Shown piece by piece: positions 6,561 to 21,025 of a DNA stretch of 64,000 nt. The stretch covers positions 1-64,000 of the forward strand of contig JAQMWT010000106.1 of the NCBI GenBank assembly GCA_029834535.1. Reading direction: 5' to 3'. Made by a program: the position numbers and the translations under genes. This stretch comes from Chrysophaeum taylorii (Eukaryota > Sar > Pelagophyceae > Pelagomonadales > Pelagomonadaceae). Every line of letters starts with the position of its first letter. The stretch's first letter is position 1. The notes beneath the pieces are model-generated. The model saw only the letters and a list, made by a program, of their open reading frames with translations. It made no database searches and was not told where the DNA came from.

Positions 6561-7110
6561 GGTTGTGACCTATTAAAGAATAGGTTATAGGATCGATAGA
6601 CATATTCGACACATAAGAGTGAAGGGTTTCTCGAGTGCGGGTTATATGTACAGTACGCTATTTTAAGCGTGGGCTTATTTACAAGACCAAACAAATCAAC
6701 ATGCTATTTAAAAATAGGATGACTTGAGACAGAAGAAAGGATTAATTCTCGACCAGTCAGTCTTTTGTTGGGGAATAGGAGGAAACAAGTGCAGGCCAGT
6801 AAGTTCACCTAGTCCCAATCTCTAACCCTAGTAAGTTCACCTGGTCAGTAAGTTCACCTAGTCCAAATCTCTAACCCCAGTAAGTTCGGCGTAAACCCAC
6901 TCGTGCTCACACCACTTCTTCGAGCTCGTCGCTCTCGCCTCCGCCAATCTAAGCTGCTTTGATCCGCACACGCCGCTAACCTTTGAGTTTACTCTAAAAA
7001 CCCTTTACTCTAAAAACCCCAGTATGTTCCCCTGGTCCCAGTTTCACCTGGTCACTCAGCTCACCTAGTCCCAATCTCTAACCCCAGTAAGTTCACGTGG
7101 TCCCAGTAAG

Positions 7111-7740
7111 TTAACCTACAGTGCGCGTGTAGACGCCGGGAGGGGGCTTATCGGTATTGCGCAGCACGTGTGGGGTAGGGTGGAGTCGTCGACCCAGATG
7201 AGTATATCCTCGGAGATGCCGATCGACAGAGAGCCACGTAGAGCTGGACGTGGCAGAAGACGGGCTTGGGAAAGAGGACGCCGACCTCGCGGGGCGTCTG
7301 GCCCTGGCTCTTGTTGATCGTTTGGCGTAGGCGGGCCTTAAGCGATACAGGTTGGAGGAGCCTCGGTGACAACGACACGATCGATCATGTATCTGGTACC
7401 GTTGCAGTGGCCGTGCGACGGGTCGAGGTTGCGAAGACATTAAGCTCGCGATCAAAGTCAGCATGCCGTTGGTTGTCAGGGAGTTCAAAGCTCTACTGTA
7501 AAGAGCGAGGCGTCGTCTTCCGACCCAGCCTAGTCAGCCGAAAAGAACTCCGACGCCTCGTCTCCGGGAAAAAAAGGCCGCGGTCATGCGCGCGTTGTCA
7601 GCATCGACAACATCGTTTCGACGGGGCGTGAGAATGGCGCGCTGAAAGAGCCGCCGCGGGTCGTGGAAATAGTCTGCGAGGTCGCCGTAGACGGCTTGGA
7701 GGATCACTGTCTGGCTCTCGCGCCTACCTGATCCTTACTC
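7111..7740 (-). pseudogene. PIF1-like (Helitron-type) helicase C-terminal fragment, unit 1
   Basis: Reading the minus strand in successive frames gives the C-terminal hallmarks of PIF1-like helicases as found in Helitron Rep-helicase proteins. They are ILQAVYGDLADYF and RAILTPRRNDVVDADN at the upstream end, then LRNLDPSHGHCNGTRYM, then TINKSQGQTPREVGV with PVFCHVQLYVALCR. The family form of the last part is INK(S/A)QGQT...VGV...PVFSHGQLYVALSR. Frame changes between these pieces and several stops show decay. The end is a TAA at 7111-7113. No Rep (HUH) domain or N-terminal helicase motifs are present, so it is 5'-truncated. A free-standing PIF1 pseudogene is possible, but the tandem mobile-element setting favours Helitron. 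Confidence 0.7.
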
Positions 7741-8091
7741 TCGCGCCTACCTGATCCTTACCCTAAATCGAGGGACAAACAGACAGACAGACAAACATCT
7801 GTCGATTAGTAGTTACAAGTGCAGGCCAGTAAGTTCACCTACTCCCAATCTCTTACCCCAGTAAGTTCGGCGTAAACCCACTCGTGCTCACACCCACTCA
7901 CCCCACTCTCCTTTGAGCTCGTCGCTCTCACCCCCGCCAATCCAAGCTGCTTTGATCCGCACGCGCCGCCAACCCTTGAGTTTACTCTAAACACCCCAGT
8001 AAGTTCACCTGGTCCCAGTTAGTTCACCTGGTCCCAGTTAGTTCACCTGGTCACTCAGCTCACCTAGTCCCAATCTCAAACCCCAGTAAGT

Positions 8092-8734
8092 TCACCTGGT
8101 CCCAGTAAGTTCACCTACAGTGCGCGTGTAGACGCCGGGAGGGGGCTTATCGGTATTGCGCAGCACGTGTGGGGTAGGGTGGAGTCGTCGACCCAGATGA
8201 GTATATCCTCGGAGATGCCGATCGACAGAGAGCCACGTAGAGCTGGACGTGGCAGAAGACGGGCTTGGGAAAGAGGACGCCGACCTCGCGGGGCGTCTGG
8301 CCCTGGCTCTTGTTGATCGTTTGGCGTAGGCGGGCCTTAAGGGATACAGGTTGGAGGAGCCTCGGTGACAACGACACGATCGATCATGTATCTGGTACCG
8401 TTGCAGTGGCCGTGCGACGGGTCGAGGTTGCGAAGACTTTAAGCTCGCGATCAAAGTCAGCATGCCGTTGGTTGTCAGGGAGTTCAAAGCTCTACTGTAA
8501 AGAGCGAGGCGTCGTCTTCCGACCCAGCCTAGTCAGCCGAAAAGAACTCCGACGCCTCGTCTCCGGGAAAAAAAGGCCGCGGTCATGCGCGCGTTGTCAG
8601 CATCGACAACATCGTTTCGACGGGGCGTGAGAATGGCGCGCTGAAAGAGCCGCCGCGGGTCGTGGAAATAGTCTGCGAGGTCGCCGTAGACGGCTTGGAG
8701 GATCACTGTCTGGCTCTCGCGCCTACCTGATCCT
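8092..8734 (-). pseudogene. PIF1-like (Helitron-type) helicase C-terminal fragment, unit 2
   Basis: This is a nearly identical copy of the 7111-7740 fragment, offset by 999 bp, with the same helicase strings and the same frame breaks. The terminal codons differ: the TAA of unit 1 is replaced so that the frame runs six codons further to a TGA at 8092. Sharing the same frameshifts means the unit was already dead when it was duplicated. It is truncated at the same upstream point, next to a (ACAA/ACAG)n tract. Confidence 0.7.
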
Positions 8735-8749
8735 TACCCTAAATCGAGG

Positions 8750-8793
8750 GACAAACAGACAGACAAACAAACAAACAAACAAACAGACAAACA
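8750..8793. repeat. (ACAA/ACAG)n simple repeat
   Basis: A run of acag and acaa tetranucleotides ends Helitron-like unit 2. A shorter version ends unit 1 near 7785-7803, and a similar tract with the same following bases (acaaacatct) is at about 21195-21225. Confidence 0.8.
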
Positions 8794-8812: not shown

Positions 8813-9489
8813 GAAACCCGTACAAGTTTCCGCGGCTTGTGTAGGAAAATTTTTAATTTTATTGGCTATGCGAGTGCATATGACCAGTGACCGACCCAAC
8901 TCGGTCACAAACCAAATTAACTGGTGGGCACATACCGTCACACAACAAATATGTACAGTAGACCACCGCCAGACACATTGTCGCATTGTACTCGTGATCA
9001 GGCGCAAATTGATCACTCCATTTATACGTACAACACAGTTGGGATGACACACCTACGCATCTGGGCCCATAACCTGGAGAGATTTGACCCTCACCGGGTA
9101 CATGGTAGAGACTGCGTGCAGTCTTGGGCGTGTACAGACCATTCCGCTTGTCACTCTACTACACAAGGTAGGGATTTAAGCCCTAACTCCTTAAGGACAT
9201 TAGGTCCCATAGAAGCGTTTACACTGACAACGAGGAACGAAGCCTCTGTTAATCAAACAGAAAACCCCGTACCTGACGGTACGCACCTGGAGGCCTACTC
9301 CATGTTGGAAAAGAGCTTCAGACTGGGATCTTCATAGTCATGAGTAAGTAATTGCGGAAGGGTAAGGAAGGATAGAGGGAAAGCCGTATTACGGAGAGAA
9401 AACCCTCTTGTAGAGATAGGTGTGAAATGTTCCAGTGTCGCACACATAATAGTGTAGCTCTCTGGAACACCATAAGACTGCTTAGTCAA
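8813..9489. other. Unassigned element-derived stretch
   Basis: No firm gene. A minus-strand frame at 9295-9489 (64 codons) shows only weak resemblance to the end of the copy-1 protease region (both have a Leu-Pro-x-Leu, Tyr/His-rich tail), so it may be another scrap of that family. The 16-base ctgggcccataacctg string shared with the 4.8-kb region lies here. The stretch stops sharply at 9489, where integrase-coding sequence on the plus strand begins. Confidence 0.25.
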
Positions 9490-10638
9490 TCCTCGAGTCT
9501 TTTGTCGCGAATATATTACTCAAAGGTTATCTACCTCAGAGGATTCGTACCGACAATGGGAAAGAGTTCGTCAACAAGTTGACGGAAGAGTTTCGTCATC
9601 TTTTCAATGTTCGGTATAGTACCACGCTTCTGTATCATGCTCAGGCTAATCCTGCGGAAAGGGTCGACCGCTTTATCAAGGCTTTCCTCCGTGCGTGCCT
9701 TCAAAACCGCAAGATCACGGAATGGCCTGAATTCGCGGAGTACATTGCTTTTTGCTACAATCGTAAGTTTATTCCGGGGACTCAGATCTCACCTTTCATG
9801 CTTCGTCTTAACCGGCAGCCTTTATTGCCAACCGATTACACGATCATGGATCTTGATGTCCGCCGCCTGCCGAAAACTCGCTCCGATGTTGTGGCAGAGA
9901 CTCGCGAGAGGTTGAAATTCTACACCGCTACGGTGAATGAAGCTCGCGAGAAGGCTCTTCGTAAACAACGTCTCGCTTATAAAGCGGACCATGTCGATGT
10001 GGAGTATGAAGAGGGTTCACATGTTCTGCTCTACATCCCTTTCTTCTGAACAAGCTTCGACCTGAATGGCGCGGTCCATTCGTTATTTTGGAACGTTTGT
10101 CCCCGGTCACTTACAGGATTGAGTCTCTTGATTCTCCTACTGAACGCCGCTGTGTTCATGTTAGCCAGATCACCCCTGTGATGGTTTCTCCAGTGGTCGA
10201 TCGAGCTGTGCCCAAGCCCAAGGAGAGACCTTTCGGGATGATTACAAGCATGGTAAGTTCGTTATCTTTCGGATTCCGGACAACAAACGGTCCGATTGGC
10301 GAAAGAAGATTCACGTCGCTGAAGTTTATGAGCCCTATGATTTTGTGAATGATCGAGTCGCTCTGCATTTCTATGCTGATCTTGGTCCCCATGACAAGGT
10401 TTCTTATTACGAGCCTACCTCACATCTCTCTACTCGCAAGCTTAAGCCGGAATACAAGGACGTGGACGGTCGCAGTTTCACCGACAAGACCAAGGTCAAC
10501 AACAGTACCACACCTTGTGTCACCGACTTCGCCCCGCATGAGATCGATGTGTTGATTCCTAAGTTCACTTTGCGTGGTGGACGCGTTCCTGAACCTGTCG
10601 TTGAACGTGTCTACAAGAAGATTCGTTCCCGAGGCGCT
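9490..10638 (+). pseudogene. Integrase C-terminal half of a Ty3/gypsy-like element, plus strand
   Basis: The plus-strand protein matches the integrase of the minus-strand element at 10955-12374. It covers the second catalytic Asp (RTDNGKEF), the Glu region (NPAERVDR), a shared YIAFCYNRKFIPGTQISPF stretch, the HVDVEY-EEGSHVLLYIPF segment and the C-terminal FAPHEIDVLIPKFTLR stretch. The first catalytic Asp is absent because the fragment starts mid-domain at 9490. Frame changes occur near 10045 and near 10240. The match stops at 10638, exactly where the left LTR of the minus-strand element begins. It looks like an older relative into which the minus-strand element inserted, or a rearrangement junction. 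Confidence 0.8.
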
Positions 10639-10914
10639 TGTGGCGTAAGGAGAATTTATGACTACCTGGCGTGCCTTCGAATCCTGGCTCGCCGCTCGTG
10701 TCCGTGCCCTTGATGGAGTCACTGGACGAGGATGGCCGTTCTCCTTCCACACAACCACACACAACTTCCGTGCCTGGTCCTCACAACTTGAGGATCGGCG
10801 GTTGCTTTATGATTAAGATATTATCGAAACACAGAAATCAGGGTGACACATGTCACGGACAAGGGGGGGCCCTAGAAGAGGGGTAAGACTTAGGAGGCGG
10901 GAGTTGCCGCCACA
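10639..10914 (-). repeat. 3' LTR (276 bp)
   Basis: It begins TGTGGCG and ends CGCCACA, a 7-bp perfect inverted pair, and aligns along its whole length with 20696-21025. It lies 40 bp beyond the end of the integrase frame. Just outside on the element side the minus strand reads CCAGGGGAGTCC, a weak polypurine-tract candidate. Confidence 0.8.
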
Positions 10915-10954
10915 GGACTCCCCTGGTAAGAATTCGAGCTGCCCCAGCGAGCTG

Positions 10955-12914
10955 CTAGCGCGAGGAGCGCGGTTTCGCCTTACGAGCATCTCGTGAACGA
11001 ATCTTCTGATAAACGCGGGTGATGATCGGCTCAGGAACTCGACCACTGCGTAAAGTAAACTTGGGGATCAACACATCAATCTCATGCGGAGCGAAATCCG
11101 TGACACAAGGAGTTGTGTTGGATGAGATCCGGGACTTGTCGGTGAAACTGCGACCTTCAACGTCCTTGAACTCGGGCTTGAGTTTGCGGTGCGAAAGGTG
11201 AGAGGTCGGCTTGAAATAAGCGACATCATCATTCGGACCCAAATCGGAGTAGGAATGTAGAGCAACACGATCATTTTGGTAATCGTAAGGCTCGTAAACT
11301 TCGGCAACATAAATCTTCTTGCGCCAATCAGAGCGCTTCCGGTCAGGAATCCGGAAAACAACAAACTTACCGTGCTGATAATCATCACGGAAGGTTTCTT
11401 CGGATTTGCGGATGGTTTGATCAACGATCGGCACCATCACAGGCGTGATCTGACTAACATGAGCACGTCGTTCTTCGGGCGGAGAGTCGAGAGACTCAAT
11501 CCTATAGGTGACCGGGAAAAGGCGTTCCTTGATAATAAACGGTCCTCGCCATTCCGGTCGAAGTTTGTTCTGAAGGAAAGGAATATAGAGCAAAACGTGC
11601 GATCCTTCCTTGTATTCAACATCAACATGATCGGCATTGTAAGCCAATCGTTGTTTCTTCAAAGATTTATCACGAGCATCGCGGACGATTTTCGTATAGT
11701 ACTTCAATCGTTCACGAGTTTCGGTGACTGCATCAGAGCGAGTCTTCGGCAACAACCGCGTATCAAAACCCATAAGCGTGTAGTCAGTAGGTAACATCGG
11801 CTGACAGTTCAGGCGCAGCATAAAGGGAGAAATCTGCGTGCCTGGAATAAACTTGCGGTTGTAACAAAACGCAATATAAATGAGCAAAGTCGGGCCAATC
11901 CGTGATGTTCCGGCCCTGAAGGCAGGCACGTAGGAAGGCCTTGATAAATCGGTTAACACGCTCAGCCGGGTTCGACTGGGCATGATAAGGAATCGTAGTT
12001 TGGTATCGTGTGTTAAAGAGATGGCAAAACTCGCGCATCAACTTGTTCACGAACTTTTTACCGTTGTCGGTACGAATCATCTGGGGCAAGTAGCCCTTCA
12101 GGAGGATGTTAATGACAAAAGACTCGAGAACGGACTCAGCAGCCTTATCGTTCAAAACATCCAGAATCAAGAAATGCGAGAGCGGATCAAAAAATACTAG
12201 AAGATACGTCTCGGGACCAGCGCTGGGCAAAGGTCCAAATAAATCCATGCAAAGAACAGCGCCATCACCATCGTAGACGGGCTGCTGCAAGATTCCAGCT
12301 CGTTTCGGCTCCGGCTTACGAGCTTGCTGGCAAACTAAACATTCAGCAATGAAGACTCCAACTTCGTTCGACATGTGGGGCCACCAAAATCGTTATTGGA
12401 TAGCCTGGACGGTACTGTGACGTCCCATATGACCACCGTTAACCAGAGTGTCATGGTAGAGTCGAATAATGCGCTTGCGCAACGTAGCAGGTGCAACAAT
12501 CATCGGGTGCAAATCAGCAGAAATGCGGTAAAGAACGTCTTTAACGACTTCGAATCGTTCGTTCGCTCGGGAACGTCGCGGCGTCTGACCTTGGGCCATT
12601 CGGTAGCGAATATCCTCGCAAGTAGCATCAGATTCTTGCTCACGTGCGATCTCAGCGAGCGTCATATTATCGGGTATCTTATCGATACAATCTTTGTAAG
12701 CGGCTGCGTCCTTGAAGATCTGTGGCTCATCGCGCGCACGGTTCTTCCGACGTTGTCTCGTAGCGTGAGACGTAGCCAATTTTATCGGATCCTTTTCAGG
12801 ATCTTCTTCCTCGTCTTCCGGCAGTTCGGTCGTAATAAACGACATTATGAAGTGGCAGCCGGAGGCGGGAATTCCTCGGTCATCAACAGGTCGGGGAAGC
12901 TCTTGGAACACCAA
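10955..12914 (-). pseudogene. Integrase of the MTase retrotransposon
   Basis: The integrase is spread over three pieces. The zinc-binding module has His residues in LYHDTLVNGGHMGRHSTVQAI and, after an in-frame TAA at 12393-12395, the CLVC pair. The catalytic core has Asp in LCMDLFGPLP, Asp in RTDNGKKF and Glu in NPAERVNR, about 35 residues after the second Asp, as usual for DDE retroviral-type integrases. A frameshift near 11880 moves into the last frame, which carries YIAFCYNRKF and a long C-terminal domain ending at 10955. The family role is strand transfer of the element cDNA into the genome. It is dead here. The plus-strand relative at 9490-10638 confirms the correct joining of the last two frames. 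Confidence 0.85.
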
Positions 12915-13528
12915 ACAACCAAATAAGCGTGGTTCAAAGGTTCTCCAAACTCGTCAGTCTCGATGACATGATCTATTGGGTTGCGGGAGAGACAGTCAGG
13001 GATACTCATTCCCGGTGACTTTCCCGGCTTGTAGCCAAGTTCAGGGTCAAAATTGGCGAGGCGCATCGCCCAACGAGCAAGCTGCCCAGACGAGTGCGTC
13101 GCCTTACGTAAAAACGTCAAATTTCGGTGATCGGTCTCCAAAACAGTACGGTGCCCTTCGATGTAGGCTCGAAAGTGCTCTAGAGAAAGTATAACAGCCA
13201 GCAGCTCTAGCCGACGGGGCTCGTAATTGCGCATCTCCTTCGGCACAGCTCGGCTCCAATATTCAATCACTCGTTCTTCTCGAGTCACTCTTCCGGCATC
13301 GTCCTTGACTTGGACAATCTGGAAGAGATATACTCCAAGTCCATCCTTGGAAGCATCGGATCGGATCTGAAAAGGCAGATCATAATCGGGGTGGTAGACT
13401 CCTCTGGAATCAACCAAAGCTTCAATAATCGTATCCCAAGCTTTCTGACACTCGGGCGTCCACTCGAACTTTACACCTTCGAGGCATAATCGTCTCAGCG
13501 GTTCCACGATCTTCGTTCCATCGCCCAC
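12845..13528 (-). pseudogene. RNase H domain of the MTase retrotransposon
   Basis: After the RT thumb/connection (GVKFEWTPECQKAWDTI) comes an RNase H of the Ty3/gypsy type. The four acidic active-site positions can be seen: Asp in RSDASKDGLGVYLFQ, Glu in RRLELLAVILSLEHF, Asp in LETDHRNLTFL and Asp in SIPDCLSRNP. The domain degrades the RNA strand of RNA-DNA hybrids during reverse transcription. The frame differs from that of the RT, so a small deletion near 13540 separates them. It overlaps the next frame by 70 bases. Confidence 0.85.
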
Positions 13529-14705
13529 ATATCGCCGGCATGCCGATGCCGATGAAAGAGCGTATCTGGGTCTTCGGGGAAGTATTCGGCAAAGTACCTG
13601 GAATCGGCATCTTCTGCAGTGCTTCCAGCGTCTTCGGATTCGGCTTCAAGCCTTCTGGGGTCGAAATGTGTCCCAGAAATTCTATATCATCCTTGAGAAG
13701 GTGGAACTTCGCGGTTCGACCGCTGTACCCTCTCTGTGCCAAATGACACATCACTTCGATCAAAACTTGTAAATGTCGATGAAGATCGTCGGATCCCATC
13801 ATAATATCGTCAACAAACGCAACCAAGTCTCGATACATCCATTTCGAAAGGTCGCTCGCCATTTGCTTGCAGAAAAGAGCTCCGGCCGTCTTCACACCTA
13901 GAGGTAATCGCAAGAAACTATGAGCGCCAAGTGGGCTAACCATCGTGACAGCGTCTTGCGCTGCCGGATCCAGACGAAGGTTGTGGTATCCCCATCTAAT
14001 ATCAATGCATGTCCGCCATCGTCGCATAGCGAGAAAAGCTAAAGCATCATCTTGTCGAATGTTCGGCCAACTGTCATTGACCAATTGATCGTTGAGCTGA
14101 CGTAAGTCAACTGCAGCACGGAACGCGTTTGACGTTCCAATCTCAGCTCCTTTCTTCGGAAGCATCAACACAGGAAAGCCCCAAGGTGAGTTGGCCGGAC
14201 GAATGACTCCATCCCGGCACCACTCGCTGATCTGCTTGCGGAGACAATCGAGCTTCGCAGGCGTCAATCGGTAGGGCGTCATCTTAATCGGTCGCGGATT
14301 CGCGTCTTTGAATCGTAGAGACACAGGAGGTGAGTCCACAGGTCTCATAATCGGGTCGAAAAAGGCCCAAGAATATTGCACACAGTGACGGAGCATCAGT
14401 TTCGCCTCGTCATCTAAGTGCGGATTGTCAGGAATTCCCAGCTCCTGAACAACCTTGTCAACTTCTTCCTTCGTAGGAATTTTAACTTTCATTGCTTCGT
14501 TATCCTTGACATGCTCAGGAGTTTGCGGCAGCGGTGCACCCTCAGCATCGCGCGGCGCATCTTTCCATGGCACATCGAACTTTTTCTCATATTTTAGTCT
14601 CACTTCCGGGTGGCTTTTGTTGATCCTCTCGCCTTTGACACGAACCTTCGGCTCGCTCTTAATCTTCGGTTCCCGATCTCGCTCAGGATCTGGCGGAACG
14701 TCCAA
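13422..14705 (-). pseudogene. Reverse transcriptase of the MTase retrotransposon
   Basis: About 150 charged residues at the start (linker after the MTase) lead into a Ty3/gypsy reverse transcriptase. The markers are MTPYRLTPAKLDCL, SPWGFPVLMLPKKG, the first catalytic Asp in CIDIRWGYHNLRL and the Asp pair in AFVDDIMMGS at residues about 296-305. IEFLGHI, typical of this group, follows. FVDD replaces the more common Y(V/I/L)DD. The frame is the same as that of the MTase frame and is parted from it by TGA at 14751-14753. After residue about 390 it goes out of frame; the correct continuation (RYVGDGTKIVEPL) is in the RNase H frame. Confidence 0.9.
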
Positions 14706-14750
14706 ATTTGGTTGTCGGGGGCAGCAGAAGAAGCATGAGACGCCCCGCTC

Positions 14751-16802
14751 TCATGTTGCAGGCGGAATCAACGGTACCTCTGGAGGTTTCCATTTGGTGC
14801 GATCTTGGAGATCATCAGTCGACACCCATCTTACGACACGTGTGCGCGTGTTTAACAGCGGAACTTGTACGTGACGAAGGGTGGTTTCATCAATTTGCAA
14901 ATAATAATCAAACGGTCGGTCTGCAGGACTCAACGCTGACGGCAAAGCTTCGCCGCTCAGGTGAAAATCCTTGGTCACAGAGTTGTGCAGATCGAGTACT
15001 AATAAGGTCATCGTGTCTGGTGGCACGACGGACGCCAAGTGTTTCAACGAGGTCGTCCTGGAGAAGCCGGCCCAATCAAAATCAAGGGGCATCGTCAGCA
15101 ACTCCGAAGTCATTTTCAGATTCAGAGATCTGTAATCGGAACGGTGCGGTCCTACGCGAAGCGGGACACGCGTAACGGTATAAGCTGCGTCTGTCGCGGC
15201 TCGTGATGATCCTAAATTGTTCATCTGAAGTAAATGTCGTTCGTCGGCGTAGCCAAGCGCGGCGGCGAACTCTTGCTGCATATTCTTGCAAGTCTTTGGA
15301 ACTGCGCGCAAATGGAGCGGATGGCTGGAAACCAACAATCGCACGCGACAGCTCATCAAACTGGGCGTTATGTCGTAAAAATTGACGACGTACACGTAAG
15401 GGTGCAAACGTGCAACGTAAGAAATAATCGAGGCCTCCTGCTCTATCAACCACATGAAGAAACCAGCCATCTTGCATAATTTCATCGTCCAGTGGGCAGC
15501 GGTGACTACCTTACCAACAACCCTGGAAGTCAAGTTGCACAGAGCGGAGTGTACGCAGGGTGGCGACGCGATACACATCGACGACGACCATTCCGCGTAG
15601 GGTAAATAAGATTCGATCAACCGTAAGGTTGTAACATAGCGACCACACAGTGTGTGCTGCACCACAGGAATGTTCGGAAAGTTCTTGTGGTGGATCTGGT
15701 TGGCGGTGTCCGACGCATCGAGTGCTAGCACGACTCGAAACGACGTCCCACACATTTCGTTGGCTCGTTGGAGACCTAAAGTACTGCCTCCGGCTCCACT
15801 GAACAGCATCACCACCTTGCGATAAGTGATTGGAAGCCATTGAACCTTTTCGTATCGGCGGCGGATCTCCGCTTCGGTGATCTCGCGGCACTTCTTTTCA
15901 TCTTCTTCCGACCTTCGAGCAAAATCGTCGTCGCCTTCGGGTCGTTTGAGGGAGGACTTGTCCGCCATAGCGGTCGTAGCGTCCTTCTGCGCCGTGCTCA
16001 GCAACATCGGCGGGGGAGACGCGTCGCAATGCGTCAAATGACTAGCGACGGAAACGGTGAAAGAAAGGTTCCCCTTGTCGTATCCTTCTTCACATTCTTT
16101 CGTAAGTTCGTTGATCGTAGAGACGTTCAACTCATCTTCGTACCGAACGATATCGCCAATCGCGAGGACTTCGCCTTGAGTGACGACCGTCGGCACTTCT
16201 TCCGCGGCAGTAACCGCAACCCGAGCAGCGGACCGGTCGTGCTCTTCGCAAGAAGAACACATTCCTTCGACAACTCCCAACTGCTCGTTCTCAGCAAACG
16301 TAGCGACGAAAACCTGTCCCATTTCCATAGGTTTCGACAAAATAACCGGTAGATTGTAAGTTCGACCGGGCTCGATTTGAAGCGTGCGCGCAGCGTAAGC
16401 CACTACTTCTCGCGCGTCTTCTCCCGGAGCTGGGGAGAATTTGGTCGTAGCATGTCCCCGCGTAGCCAAGGCTACCGTTCGTTCCGGCGGCGGGCTGCGG
16501 AGATCTTTAATCGTGCTCAAACGAGCGTAAACTCGAGTCTTGACCAGGTCGAGACTCTTCCGAAAGGCATCGTGTTGATGATTGTAAATCGGTACGGTTA
16601 TCGGGTCTCGATCGTAAATAGATCGAAAGGTCACGATGGGTGCATCGACTCGTTCATCCTTGACTTTAATCTTCTTGCGCCCGTAGACGACTTGGGTTCG
16701 ATAAAAAGAGATCCGATCGTGGGGGTAGTCCACGACGGCTCCTAAAACTCGTATATCGCGCCCTCCCAACCAGATAGTTCGCATCGGCCACAATAGCGAC
16801 AA
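14751..16802 (-). pseudogene. C5 DNA methyltransferase (with protease C-terminus upstream) inside the retrotransposon polyprotein
   Basis: The 683-codon frame begins with the end of the protease (IWLGGRDIRVLGAVVDY). From residue about 325 to 608 (15830-14979) it carries a cytosine-5 DNA methyltransferase with all main motifs in order. These are motif I VVMLFSGAGGSTLGLQ (S-adenosylmethionine binding), motif II VVLALDAS, motif IV ASPPC with catalytic Cys416 at 15555-15557, motif VI WLIEQEAS, motif VIII SLMSCRVRLLV, motif IX YRSLNLKMTSELLTM and motif X LASVVPPDTM. The target-recognition region between VIII and IX is short, about 70 residues. After it comes a 70-residue extension (DYYLQIDETTLRHVQVPLL). 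The MTase itself is in one uninterrupted frame although most of the element is broken. In the family such enzymes methylate cytosine in DNA; in an element this could mark its own copies. The TGA at 14751 ends the frame and the RT follows in the same frame. Confidence 0.88.
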
Positions 16803-17403
16803 TGGGGGCGGCGATGTTGTCGGCGAGAGAGACCCGAATCGCGATCCAACGAAAGATCGTCGTCGTATTCAACCCCGATCCGTACAGCTTGCGCTTAATC
16901 GGAAGTTCGCCTCCATCGACAATCAGCTTATCTTTGGCCAACTTTCTGACCATTTCTCGTCAAATATAAGAAACATATGCCATTCCATCGACACCGATGG
17001 TCGTCGAGAATTTCGGTCCGTCACAATTCCTGTAGATGTGACAGGCCATAAACGTAAGAGTACCCGTATCCAAACAACTGAGGGTAACCAAATCGTCTTC
17101 GATCGTCTTGCCATCTCGCGGCGTCAGCGCAGTGTGAGCACATTGGGCTCTGACTCGCTCATCTCCGGGGTTGGGCATCGATAACGCGGCTCGAGCTCTC
17201 GTATCATCTGTTGTTGGCGTCATCGACGCAGCGCTCGCGGCAGCCTCTTTATCTGGCGACTTCCGCTCTTCCTCCGTGACAATCTCGGAGGGAATCAGTG
17301 CTGGTAGAGGACCCTGATCTTCGGGGTTCTTGAAAGCAAAGGACCTCTCCGATAGCTCATCCATTTCGTCATTCCAGAATGTATCCGTAGATTCATTCGT
17401 CAT
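16725..17403 (-). pseudogene. Aspartic protease of the MTase retrotransposon
   Basis: The site LSCLDTGTLTFMA has the canonical Asp-Thr-Gly, Asp codon at 17068-17070. Downstream, LYGSGLNTTTIFRW and IRVSLADNIAAP fit the flap and body. After a frameshift near 16780, IWLGGRDIRVLGAVVDY fits the Leu-Gly-x-Asp end of retropepsins. An in-frame TGA (16960-16962) lies in the middle. The role would be processing of the Gag-Pol polyprotein, as a homodimer. The segment before the site (17403-17100) is acidic and low in conserved features. Confidence 0.75.
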
Positions 17404-17489
17404 CGGTTGATCGTCACCGTTGGTGCCGATCGGTTACGTGTCAGCTGCGGCTTCGAGTCCGTAGCTGAGCGGTTGTTCTGGTGGCTTCG

Positions 17490-18692
17490 TTAGCAGAAGT
17501 TCCGAGTTCTCGTCCACCAATCCTGCAGGTTCCACGTCGGCTCGTCTTCGTCCCCATCGAGAACGCTGCGAATCTTCTTCTTAAATCTATCCTTTTCTTC
17601 CGGCGGCGTGTCCGTGGCTCGATCCGTCGTAACCGAAACCGTTTCGGGGGGGTCCGCAGGAAAAGATGGCGTCGTCCCCGACGTCAACTCTATCGTAAGA
17701 TCGTCGTCTGCATCACTCGCTATGGTCATCGTCTCGTCCGTCGAATGATCACACGAGCTATCACTGCATAAATCCTTGTGTGGCTCACAGCCAGTTCGGT
17801 CGCCAAAGGTCGTCCCTGGAGGGTCCAAAGATAAGCCGATAGCGTCGAGTGCTTCCTCGTCAAAAACAAACGGTGCGTCGTCTGGGGGCGACTCGTCAAG
17901 TAACGTTATCGCTGACACTGGTCCACAAGGTGTAGATTCTTCATCTTCCGAGTCTGAATCGCCTTCCCAGTATCGTGGAGCTTCGAGGTCATCGCTCGAC
18001 TCTTCGAGTTCATCGCTCGACATCTCGTCATAATTCTGTGCCAAAGACCGACGACCGATCAGCACGTCGTTGGGTGGCTCGCCCATCGGCGGGCGAGCAA
18101 GATCGTCGAATGCGGCCGCGGCAAGGGCGTCGGCTGCGTTGTCGGTGCGGGTGTCCGTGTTCGGGTACACCATCACTCCTAATGGTAACTGTTGACCGCA
18201 AGGGGTCGTGAACGCGAACGTTGCAGACGAATGTCCCGAGTCTTCCCGGTAACGACCATAGTCCGAATTTCGATCGCGAGATCTTCGTCGCCGGCGTCGG
18301 CGTGAATGTCTGCTAGAGCTCCGGCTTTCTTTCCGTCGGCGCGGGCGCGAGCTGCTACGGCTCTTGTCGCGGCGTCGGGGGCTCCGGCTATCTCGACGGC
18401 CCGGTCGTGTCGAAGACGATCGGCCGTGTCCATCTTTCAAGTGCTTCACGGAATCCACAATCGTGGTCAGCAGCGTGCCCATATCGTTGAGTCTGTTCTG
18501 AATATCGTGAGCGGCGCTCGAACCTAGGGTGGCATTGGAACCGCCGTCATCAGGCGAATGATTATCTTTCTTTTGTCGGCTCTCCCATCGTCCCCGAGAG
18601 ATGGGCTTTTTTGCCGTCTTCGATGTACTTACACATCGCCACATAATAGTCATCAGGCTCGCGGTTGCAAATGATCCGGTTCCCATGTTCAT
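17490..18692 (-). pseudogene. RS-rich and acidic linker between Gag and protease
   Basis: This 400-codon frame overlaps the end of Gag by 131 bases in the +1 frame. The start of the frame is probably not used; meaningful sequence seems to begin after the Gag stop. At about 18422-18243 it has an Arg/Ser-rich block with many SRS, RSS and RRR runs, like RS domains of splicing factors. From about 18150 to 17500 it turns strongly acidic, with runs such as SSDELEESSDDLE and DGDEDEP. No known enzyme domain. Possible roles are nucleic-acid binding for the basic part and a spacer for the acidic part; both are inference. Confidence 0.55.
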
Positions 18693-20230
18693 CCTTTTCG
18701 TGGGTTGTTAAGAAAAACCCACAATCCTTGCATGTGCTCTCGAACCACTTTTTCGGATTCTCTTCTAGACGCAATGCTTCATATTTCGTCGTTTTATCTT
18801 TCGGTCCCGAGGCGAGCGCTCGTCCTCCGCGTCCAGACGGTGGCTTCTGCGGCTTCCCGCCCGACGGGTTCGGTGAATTTCGGCTGTTCCGCTCCGCCAT
18901 GGCGGTTGCGAAATCGTTCTCGAGCCGTGTAATCAATGACAACGTCGACGTAAACGTATTATACGTCGTCGGGTGCCCGCTGCGCATGGTTCGCACGCGG
19001 GATTTCAATTCGCTGGACTCCAGTCCACGTATCAAGTAAGAGATGATCTCCACGTCGTTGAGATCTCGGTTGGCCACAGAGCAGTACGCCATGGCCTCTT
19101 TCTGAAATTTGATGCAATAAGTATGCACGTGGCGTTCCCCAGATCGTTTTGGAACGGTCGCTTGGGTCGTGCCTTGCAGTTTTCGTAGCAATTCCTCTGC
19201 CGTCATCGGCAATGGGCAACTCTCTCGAAAATATCTCAAAATCTTGATGCAGTACTTCTCGTTCAGTCGTCGTAGTCGTCATACCACTGAACCGCACTCC
19301 TCATCGTCGATATCCCGTCGTAAATAAAAAGACGCTGGGTGATCGAGATCTTTACACACGTCTTCGTACTTCTTCAAGTGTTCTCTGAAAATCGGTGCGA
19401 CTGTGTCGCGCAGGCTCGCGGGCAGCAGGTACCGCAGCTTCTCCATGCTAAGATGGTCTTCGGCTAACGTACTCATCACCGCACCCGCATCTAAATCGAA
19501 ACTGGTTCTGATCGCGCCCATCAAGAACCAGTTTGAAAGTTTCGGTCTTTAATCCGGAGGTCGATCGCCGATCCTTGTTGCGATCGCGTTTGGCTAACGC
19601 GCTGGCGAACCGACCCGTGAAAGCCATCAAGAACTTTTGGTTGTCCATTCTTCCGTCGTCATGCGCCTCCTCCTTTTCTTCGTAATCGTCGTCTTCATAG
19701 CGCGGCTTCCTAGCTTTCGCGCGTGATCGTGTAGTTGGCGGCTCTTCCTCAGCTCGGGACCCCAGGCTGCTCGCTCGCCTCGATCGACTCGGCGTACGTA
19801 GCTCGTCCCTTTCTCGTGTCAATGAATTTACTTGATCTTGGAGGTCGTCTGCTCGAGCGTTGGCCTTCCGCACTTGCCCTCGTAAATCTTCGGCCTCCTT
19901 TCGCTGTAGCCGCTCCTTTCGATCGCTTTCTTCCGCTATTTGTCGTAAAAGTCGTTCCTGCGAACGTTCGTTTTCTTCCCGCAACGCACGCAAATGTGCC
20001 TCGTAGAACTCATTCATTCTCGTTGCGTCCGGGGTTCGTGCACGCGTTGACGGGGCTGTCGCTCGTCCTCCCGACGGTCTCTCCGCCGGTTCGCCGTTGT
20101 TGTAGTCTAGCTCTTCTCCCTCGTTGTCAACATCAGTATCATCATCATCGTTCCCCTCGCTCGTCTCATCCTGACAGCCTGGCGGTTCGTCATATCGCAT
20201 CTGCTCGTCGGCAGCATCATCGTCTCCCAT
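18562..20230 (-). pseudogene. Gag of the MTase retrotransposon
   Basis: An ATG at 20230 opens 260 codons: acidic N-terminus, then a coiled coil (about residues 70-145, many Arg/Glu with Leu spacing, HLRALREENERSQERLL). A frameshift near 19540 leads to a Gag-like helical core in the next frame. The core is crossed by TGA at 19279-19281 and continues in frame from RLRRLNEKYCIKIL to 18562. Near the end, CKDCGFFLTTHEKDEHGN plus IICN gives a possible Cys/His metal site, not a classic CCHC knuckle. Gag forms the particle that holds element RNA. An upstream frame at 20324-20644, in the same frame as the ATG, may be its true N-terminus. Confidence 0.7.
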
Positions 20231-20236
20231 ATCGGC

Positions 20237-20695
20237 TCAGGCTCGTTCTAATCGGCCGAGATCAGAGCGGGTCCAAAATGGTTGAGTCGTCGTCGTTCTC
20301 GTGCTCCTTCGACTCTGGGACTTCTAATCGTCCACGACACGCGTAATATCGTCGTTGCGTGCGTCTTCCACCGACAAATCTATCAGTCCGGTGGGCGGCA
20401 GAACTCGTCTCTGCCCGGCAATCAATGCCTTATCCGTGAGTTGCGATCTCACTCCGCTCGCCTGCGGCAGCCGTACCCGGGTTGCGCGTCGGCTAGAACC
20501 GAATCGCGCGTCGTCACCTCCGACGACTAACGTATCCGGCCGGGGAACTTCCCCACGGCAGTGGTCCTCCTGGAATTCTTCGTCGGCGCGCTTGATCAGG
20601 GCGCGCACGGCTTGTCCGGACCGTGTAGAGAATGCAAGATGCACTCGTCCGCTGCGACCGATATGGTCGCTCGAATATCGTATTCCTCCACCACC
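20237..20695 (-). other. Leader between 5' LTR and Gag, with possible Gag N-terminal codons
   Basis: A 106-codon frame (20324-20644) is in the same frame as the Gag ATG at 20230, separated only by TAG at 20324 and TGA at 20237-20239. It starts about 50 bases after the LTR, a plausible place for the original Gag start. No domain is recognised. Confidence 0.4.
20678..20693 (-). promoter_or_regulatory. Candidate primer-binding site
   Basis: Two bases inside the 5' LTR the minus strand reads TGGTGGAGGAATACGA, beginning with TGG as expected for pairing with the CCA end of a tRNA. The matching tRNA was not identified. Confidence 0.4.
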
Positions 20696-21025
20696 TGTGG
20701 CGTAAGGAGAATTTTAGGGGCTACCTGGCGTGCCTTCGAATCCTGGCTCGCCGCTCGCGTCCGTGCCCTTGATGGAGTCACTGGACGAGGATGGCCGTTC
20801 TCTCGCCACACAACCACAAACAACTTCCGTGCCTGGTCGTCACAACTTGAGGATCGGCTGTTGCTTTATGATTAAGTCTTTTAATTTAAGAACACTTGAA
20901 TCACAGAAATCAGGGAAGATGATGTCATAGAGAAAATTGACATCATCAGAACGGAGTAGGGTGCCCCTGATAAGGGGGGGGCCTAGAAGAGGGGTAAGCC
21001 TTAGGAGGCAGGAGTTGCCGCCACA
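20696..21025 (-). repeat. 5' LTR (330 bp)
   Basis: It has the same TGTGGCG...CGCCACA ends as 10639-10914 and is similar throughout, with about 54 extra bases in the middle (about 20880-20965) and numerous substitutions. In this orientation it should hold the element promoter; no obvious TATA box was fixed. Confidence 0.8.

Follow-up and report, generated by a model that had tools for sequence, protein, structure and literature searches.

The window analysed here, 64,000 nucleotides of the pelagophyte Chrysophaeum taylorii (GenBank assembly GCA_029834535.1, contig JAQMWT010000106.1, positions 1 to 64,000), contains a degraded Ty3/gypsy long terminal repeat (LTR) retrotransposon of about 10.4 kb (10639-21025, minus strand), which carries a domain of the C5 cytosine methyltransferase (MTase) type between its protease and its reverse transcriptase (RT). 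Sequence comparisons within the genome assign the domain to this enzyme type and indicate that it is kept by purifying selection as a standing part of a large Ty3/gypsy family. We put at roughly 0.5 the probability that it is an active C5 cytosine MTase within Pol, acting on the double-stranded cDNA of the element itself by the time this integrates.

Layout of the window element

The element has the order Gag-protease-MTase-RT-RNase H-integrase, with the following features, all on the minus strand:

20696..21025, 5' LTR, 330 bp (TGTGGCG...CGCCACA)
16963..20236, Gag region in several broken frames (19451-20236, 18565-19278, 17493-18707, 16963-17433)
15900..17079, protease region and linker; the D-T-G (17062-17070) belongs to frame 16963-17433 and the remainder to frame 14754-16868
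14754..15899, C5-MTase-type domain, 382 aa; PF00145 match (E 8.6e-6), homologue in a second gypsy lineage, invariant catalytic residues
15786..15803, motif I, FSGAGG, from alignments
15555..15563, motif IV, PPC, with the putative nucleophile C115, from alignments and the tblastn span
15441..15443, putative motif VI glutamate E153 (IEQE), invariant across lineages, at the end of a strand of a low-confidence model
15339..15347, motif VIII-like R-V-R (R185, R187), invariant across lineages
15018..15104, motifs IX-X (E266 ... VPP 292-294); the homologous lineage matches PF00145 at 257-321
13425..14750, RT (RVT_1, E 5.9e-13)
12848..13645, RNase H (RT_RNaseH, E 2.2e-26)
11787..12392, integrase zinc-binding domain and core (rve, E 2.4e-11; Integrase_H2C2, E 1.4e-6)
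10958..12037, integrase C-terminus and Pol tail (Integrase_p58_C, E 0.0017, under its cut-off)
10639..10914, 3' LTR, 276 bp (TGTGGCG...CGCCACA)

The order RT-RNase H-integrase, with matches to RVT_1 and rve, is that of Ty3/gypsy elements. The LTRs stand in direct orientation with TG...CA ends, and their common pieces are 94% (170/181) and 93% (55/59) identical. No target-site duplication was seen at this copy, which has differing flanks and adjoins a fragment of another element; its absence in one degraded copy leaves the Ty3/gypsy membership intact. The left LTR is adjoined at 9486-10713 (plus strand) by the 3' end of a further gypsy element of this kind, which lies in opposite orientation and forms inverted repeats. 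The D-T-G triplet, which we take to be the aspartic-protease motif, stands without a Pfam match. A preliminary description, made from the sequence alone, had placed a cytosine-5 MTase between protease and RT of a Ty3/gypsy-like element, and both the domain order and the profile matches agree with it; the span that it marked (14979-15830) corresponds to residues 24-307 of the 382-aa piece.

The window copy is damaged: Gag is out of register with the protease and MTase, and frame changes split RT/RNase H and integrase. The open frame of protease and MTase (14754-16868, 705 aa) ends at a TGA (14751-14753), after which the RT frame (13425-14750) follows in register. This arrangement, as described earlier, exists in the window copy but is not a general feature. 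In L039 (numbers L001-L082 denote loci sampled from the same genome), Gag through RT, with the MTase inside and RVT_1 found, occupies one 1868-aa frame with no TGA between MTase and RT, and in L040 a single 1209-aa frame runs from RT through the Pol tail. Gag residues that are broken up in the window sit in long single frames in both loci. L039 also has a 300-nt direct repeat (97% identical, spacing 8927); no direct LTR repeat was found within the stretches examined of L040, L041 and L046. In Gag (window 18565-19278, minus strand, and L039) an RS-rich stretch accompanies a Cys/His pattern, CKDCGFF...H...CNREP...CKY, with no obvious zinc knuckle.

The methyltransferase-type domain and its copies

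Comparison with the DNA_methylase profile (PF00145), which had been proposed for a 683-residue frame, gave a match spanning motifs I-II only, with E 4.1e-5 when the open frame of the window copy was searched and 8.6e-6 with the 382-aa piece (25.8 bits, above the cut-off of 22). At a limit of E <= 1 the profile was found in 21/21 members of alignment A1 (21 of 32 MTase copies, two having been dropped for stops and nine by choice), the best value being 6.5e-6; in longer frames of relatives it scored below the cut-off of 22 (L039 20.9, L046 19.2, L074 18.7 and L073 17.8 bits). TIGR00675 (E 0.0016) and phrog_116 (E 1.1e-6) also matched the window domain. Tblastn against plasmids (E <= 10) gave 17 records; 12 of the 15 listed lay on annotated DNA cytosine methyltransferases and three on unannotated stretches, the best being an annotated enzyme of Rubrobacter marinus (E 1e-3) aligned over residues 5-126, including PPC. 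Three phage records (E 0.3 to 2) comprised two annotated DNA methyltransferases and one hypothetical protein.

The window domain was not among the 57 matches of a genome-wide PF00145 search, which counts against its identity. The identity is decided by a second gypsy lineage of the same genome, which gives a homologous domain with better PF00145 matches. This lineage (L073, L074) was found by sampling upstream of RNase H matches, and its RT is 58-59% identical to that of the window family. In its members with open frames, identity to the window domain along its length is 36-37%, and PF00145 is matched at 2.5e-9 (L079, 37.4 bits), 1.2e-8 (L081, 35.2 bits) and 1.1e-9 (L082, 38.6 bits). Each has two PF00145 stretches, the best shown being C-terminal in L079 and L081 (profile positions 257-321 and 260-321) and N-terminal in L082 (7-72). 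In the explanation we favour, purifying selection has kept the domain since before the split of the two gypsy lineages.

Outside the genome, searches limited by words or patterns gave little. The 382-aa piece matched none of 6666 protein candidates from outside the genome at E <= 1e-3; scans of viral contigs with A1, with the host DNMT2-like protein and with A2 (see below) gave no confirmed relative; and a scan of genome contigs with the Rubrobacter enzyme recovered only itself. A search with the Pol protein found 29 proteins among 7991 scored candidates; these align to 13-24% of the query apiece, and their Pfam rows are of the RT type.

Motifs I, II, IV, VI, VIII, IX and X had been read in order in the window domain. 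In alignment A3, which joins 11 sequences of the two lineages and leaves out the broken L073, L074 and L080, the invariant residues include G35, G37, G38, D61, P113, P114, C115, E153, R185, R187, E266, P293 and P294. The glycines of motif I, the acidic residue of motif II and the PC of motif IV are invariant both there and in 32/32 copies of the window family (31 plus L046, each match covering more than 90% of the domain); eleven motif positions are identical in all 32, where 238/375 columns are invariant anyway. Motifs I, II, IV and IX-X were thus recovered, while VI and VIII retain invariant residues with altered neighbours. An ordered-motif score as high as that of the window domain was reached by 20/400 shuffles, the best chain setting VI and VIII at positions other than those proposed; for the subfamily L046 it was reached by 1/400, and there VI fell on residue 153 and VIII on 183. 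Motifs VI-X are weak in the window copy alone and appear firmer through the second gypsy lineage.

The search for intact copies throughout the genome, suggested in the preliminary description, found the domain across a large family, including L039 with its continuous frame. At least 108 places on many contigs were scored out of 1110 candidates (78-100% identity), 83 of the 108 rows being stop-free in the matched stretch; for the RT of the family, at least 95 places were scored out of 1457. Eight RT copies without an MTase row were sampled, and all eight carry MTase sequence, with both halves present in two frames in L047, L048, L049, L051 and L054 and partial or rearranged sequence in L050, L052 and L053. 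On contig pairs C10/C297 and C25/C521 the MTase matches lie at near-equal coordinates, which suggests duplicated or haplotype contigs; the copy counts are therefore somewhat inflated. A chance insertion or an assembly artefact in one copy, for which the damage to the window copy is the sole indication, is refuted by this copy number, by the stop-free rows and by the same architecture in a diverged lineage, and can for practical purposes be set aside.

Ratios of nonsynonymous to synonymous substitution (dN/dS) were calculated without L039, L040, L041 and L043, which duplicate L010, L013, L018 and L029. The median pairwise value is 0.179 for the MTase (31 copies, 464/465 pairs), close to that of the RT (0.137; 26 copies, 317/325 pairs), and is 0.276 for the protease (22 copies, 231/231 pairs) and 0.341 for the linker (22 copies, 223/231 pairs). 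The window domain compared with L046 gave 0.071, and L079 compared with L081 gave 0.092.

Other lineages and known systems

Candidate domains also occur in Ty1/copia elements. Two of the 57 genome-wide PF00145 matches are host-like genes, L001 and L002 (by their motifs DNMT2-like and DNMT5-like, respectively; L002 lies in a frame of 2086 aa), and six others examined (L003-L008) belong to a different retroelement, which L044 and L045 show to be Ty1/copia, with protease, MTase, integrase and RVT_2 in this order. In L044, PF00145 (E 1.1e-7) and RVT_2 (E 1.6e-38) enclose an rve match of 0.0061, under its cut-off. The MTase (L044:3862-4914, L045:3993-5042) has the motifs IIAGGLHQEGF, TLPCQ and ENV, and its family comprises at least 107 scored candidates (117 matches). 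Alignment A2 contains three sequences, with L006 and L007 left out for stops and L003, L005 and L008 broken. By its sequence, this copia lineage clearly carries a C5-MTase-like domain.

A search with RVT_2 scored at least 150 of 1670 candidates, and the two copia loci chosen from it, L077 and L078, both have another candidate MTase after the protease (L077:652-1554, L078:3407-4396), with CSG, TPPC or TSPC, E-M for ENV and a canonical motif VIII (QSRER/QARER); at least 121 candidates of this type were scored (124 matches). It gave no Pfam MTase match and a weak one to phrog_116 (E 0.38 and 0.013), and a search of PDB returned only ribosomal protein uL16 (E 0.31 and 0.67). This second copia lineage probably carries a C5-MTase as well.

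A single MTase common to all these families was considered and is not favoured, as hhalign found no relation of the gypsy type to either copia type; the two copia types aligned over 184 columns in the same register, but only at E 0.09. Separate captures are favoured, with extreme divergence as a less likely alternative; the profiles compared are shallow. With the second gypsy lineage (at least 124 scored candidates, 133 matches), the four lineages total about 460 scored places, a lower bound that nevertheless includes pieces of single copies and duplicated-looking contigs. The preliminary description had raised the possibility of a separate capture in a stramenopile, which may be so, but it understated the case: such domains occur in a minimum of two gypsy lineages and, clearly in one and probably in the other, in two copia lineages. 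It is plausible, if somewhat less likely than not, that LTR retrotransposons of both superfamilies took up a C5-MTase at least three times, each time in the slot just after the protease and in numbers far exceeding the two host-like genes; cDNA methylation within the particle would then be a strategy that selection has favoured repeatedly in this host lineage.

Retroelements with DNA methyltransferases are known from Symbiodinium (SymbioLINE-Dnmt, SymbioDIRS-Dnmt3) and Klebsormidium nitens (KnitGypsy-Dnmt3) (de Mendoza et al., 2018; PMC5890265). Of the captures by LTR retrotransposons that the preliminary description gave for dinoflagellates and a charophyte, the dinoflagellate cases are LINE and DIRS elements, and only the charophyte one is Gypsy (PMC5890265). 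Like KnitGypsy-Dnmt3, whose Ka/Ks is below 0.2 (PMC5890265), the family described here is a Gypsy element with a C5-MTase inside Pol (in the 1868-aa frame of L039), conserved key residues and purifying selection. Unlike KnitGypsy-Dnmt3, which is Dnmt3-related and has a DIRS repeat structure, the window element has ordinary direct LTRs, and its genome holds two gypsy lineages together with copia elements carrying other MTases; no specific Dnmt3 affinity of the window domain was seen in the searches, made without Dnmt3 reference proteins. The Symbiodinium elements resemble it as high-copy retroelements with C5-MTases, but they are not LTR/integrase elements; SymbioDIRS enzymes methylate CG de novo in yeast (PMC5890265).

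The bacterial, archaeal and phage C5 MTases (Rubrobacter marinus, Sphingomonas plasmid enzymes, phrog_116/363) are the best matches, mainly at residues 5-126 or so; in the 15 plasmid rows listed, identity is 22-35% across 19-39% of the domain. All these enzymes are free-standing and do not belong to a retroelement polyprotein. Other transposons with DNA-modifying enzymes include DIRS elements with Dam-like N6-adenine MTases (PMC5890265) and, according to the available part of the source, an Ectocarpus Sola1 transposon with a ParB/N4-or-N6 MTase (PMC12477816); one of these is in a stramenopile, but enzyme and transposon class differ.

In the accessible text of PMC12344493, DNMT3s within LTR Copia structures are mentioned, citing the 2018 paper for streptophytes and dinoflagellates, and the word stramenopile does not occur in the main text. 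The available portion of a 2019 paper names stramenopiles, with no detail, as one of the groups in which Ty3/Gypsy and DIRS elements encode Dam or Dcm (PMC6338049), and that of PMC9998398 gives DNMT5 and DNMT6 for pelagophytes. The plastid rbcL of the genome (L056, 488 aa) reaches at most 97% identity to database proteins, and Pelagococcus subviridis, the one organism named among the 120 rows listed, stands at 93%; this tentatively places the host among ochrophyte algae close to the pelagophytes. COX1, which lies in exons, was left out of this comparison. No report of ochrophyte LTR retrotransposons with a C5-MTase was found in the literature listings examined, some of them limited to the best 10 or 15 papers of more, or in passages of PMC3145265, PMC9998398, PMC12477816, PMC12542154 and PMC12730594. 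The novelty lies in the host lineage, in the number of copies and in the variety of the MTases, of which one genome holds at least two and probably three unlike one another, all beside the protease and spread over both LTR superfamilies.

Elsewhere in the window, very long frames (up to 3293 aa) at 24746-58988 (minus strand), with tandem units of about 840 nt and PSSAPS-like linkers, perhaps encode a large repetitive host protein, and 6794-8773 holds a direct duplication of about 1 kb (a 300-nt stretch 99% identical, spacing 999) with simple-repeat tracts.

Possible role of the domain

In the proposed mechanism, the C5-MTase would be made as part of the Pol polyprotein, would be carried in the particle with RT and integrase, and would act on the double-stranded cDNA made from the element, either ahead of integration or as it takes place; the new copy would then enter the nucleus already marked, which may provide camouflage, protection or control. 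The element's own cDNA is favoured as the target because the domain lies in Pol next to RT and is under selection, and because of the SymbioDIRS precedent.

Several observations weigh against this reading. First, the AF2 models are poor (pLDDT 31 for the first and 39.9 for the second, made from the two-lineage alignment). The second, low-confidence model agrees in strand order, and strands in it end immediately before PPC and at E153. C5 DNA MTases fill the first nine rows of the structural comparison, among which DNMT1, DNMT3 and bacterial enzymes tie, but other MTases (rRNA methylase, Trm4) follow within one Z unit. Foldseek ranks DNMT2 first, then other MTases (FTSJ1, METTL16).

The rank of DNMT2 would fit a rival reading in which the enzyme, like DNMT2, methylates RNA (primer tRNA or the genomic RNA) and not DNA. 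At E <= 1, profile A1 had four PDB matches, two DNMT2 chains (0.25, 0.27) and two of GGA1 (0.2, 0.54), and hhalign to the host DNMT2-like protein gave E 0.0017 with a probability of only 15.5%. These scores are all weak and not specific within the fold; the first-ranked tblastn row is the bacterial DNA cytosine methyltransferase noted above, and the wider profile A3 gives only PDB rows named cytosine-specific methyltransferase (two chains, 0.21 and 0.45). An RNA target accordingly seems improbable to us.

Second, the window domain has EQE for ENV in motif VI, CRVR for QxRxR in motif VIII, and AS for GN in motif X (GS in the second gypsy lineage). Such departures from the canonical letters, together with a relative that lacks exactly this domain (L072, see below), would suit a catalytically dead MTase fold retained as a nucleic-acid-binding or folding module of Pol. 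PPC, E153, R185 and R187 are invariant across lineages and in 32/32 copies, however, although many columns are conserved in those copies anyway. A dead fold seems an unlikely explanation.

Third, transitions in 30 copies (0.0476 per site in CG, 0.0398 in CHG and 0.0443 in CHH) show no CpG excess. The observed/expected ratio of CpG is 1.285 in the copies and 1.402 in window 24746-59000, and that of TpG 1.102 and 0.829, respectively, G+C also differing (0.513 and 0.630). GGCC had the highest tetramer rate (0.13-0.15), with few sites counted in many pairs, and was given no weight. A lasting CpG mark on inserted copies is thus not visible by the transition test; a transient mark, another sequence context or good repair are possible. 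The same result would agree with an RNA target and speaks against action in trans on the host genome or on rival elements, by which host methylation would be shifted in the family's favour. Trans action would fit the abundance of MTase-like places in the four lineages and the presence of two host genes that are DNMT5-like and DNMT2-like by motifs, but the placement in the polyprotein favours the element's own cDNA, and we think trans action rather doubtful.

Fourth, pooled dN/dS values (MTase 0.182, RT 0.321, protease 0.398, linker 0.407) place RT above MTase, and some pairs come near or exceed 0.5 (L044-L045, 0.499; L079-L082, 1.018, the latter value of about 1.02 resting on few changes in a near-identical pair). 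Fifth, KnitGypsy-Dnmt3, the nearest analogue, produced no methylation when put through the same yeast assay as the SymbioDIRS enzymes, an outcome that its authors called inconclusive (PMC5890265).

Finally, the domain can be absent. Among five gypsy loci sampled, L073, L074 and L075 have the MTase, L076 is uninformative because of a break inside RT, and L072 is without it. Compared with L073, L072 lacks 1107 bases coinciding with the MTase, with flanks 98.8-98.9% identical, and its RNase H lies within an open 1256-aa frame. A gypsy family can therefore lose the MTase domain, which may be dispensable or supplied in trans. Intact copies without the domain had been named in the preliminary description as a sign of chance insertion; one such copy exists, but its absence appears recent and precise relative to an MTase-bearing relative, and the window domain does not thereby become a chance insertion.

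Hosts usually turn cytosine methylation against transposons, whereas here the parasites themselves carry a writer-type domain. The question why a retroelement would methylate becomes testable in a compact genome of about 71 Mb, which offers natural variants in the near-identical MTase-bearing and MTase-lacking pair L073/L072 and in the diverged enzymes.

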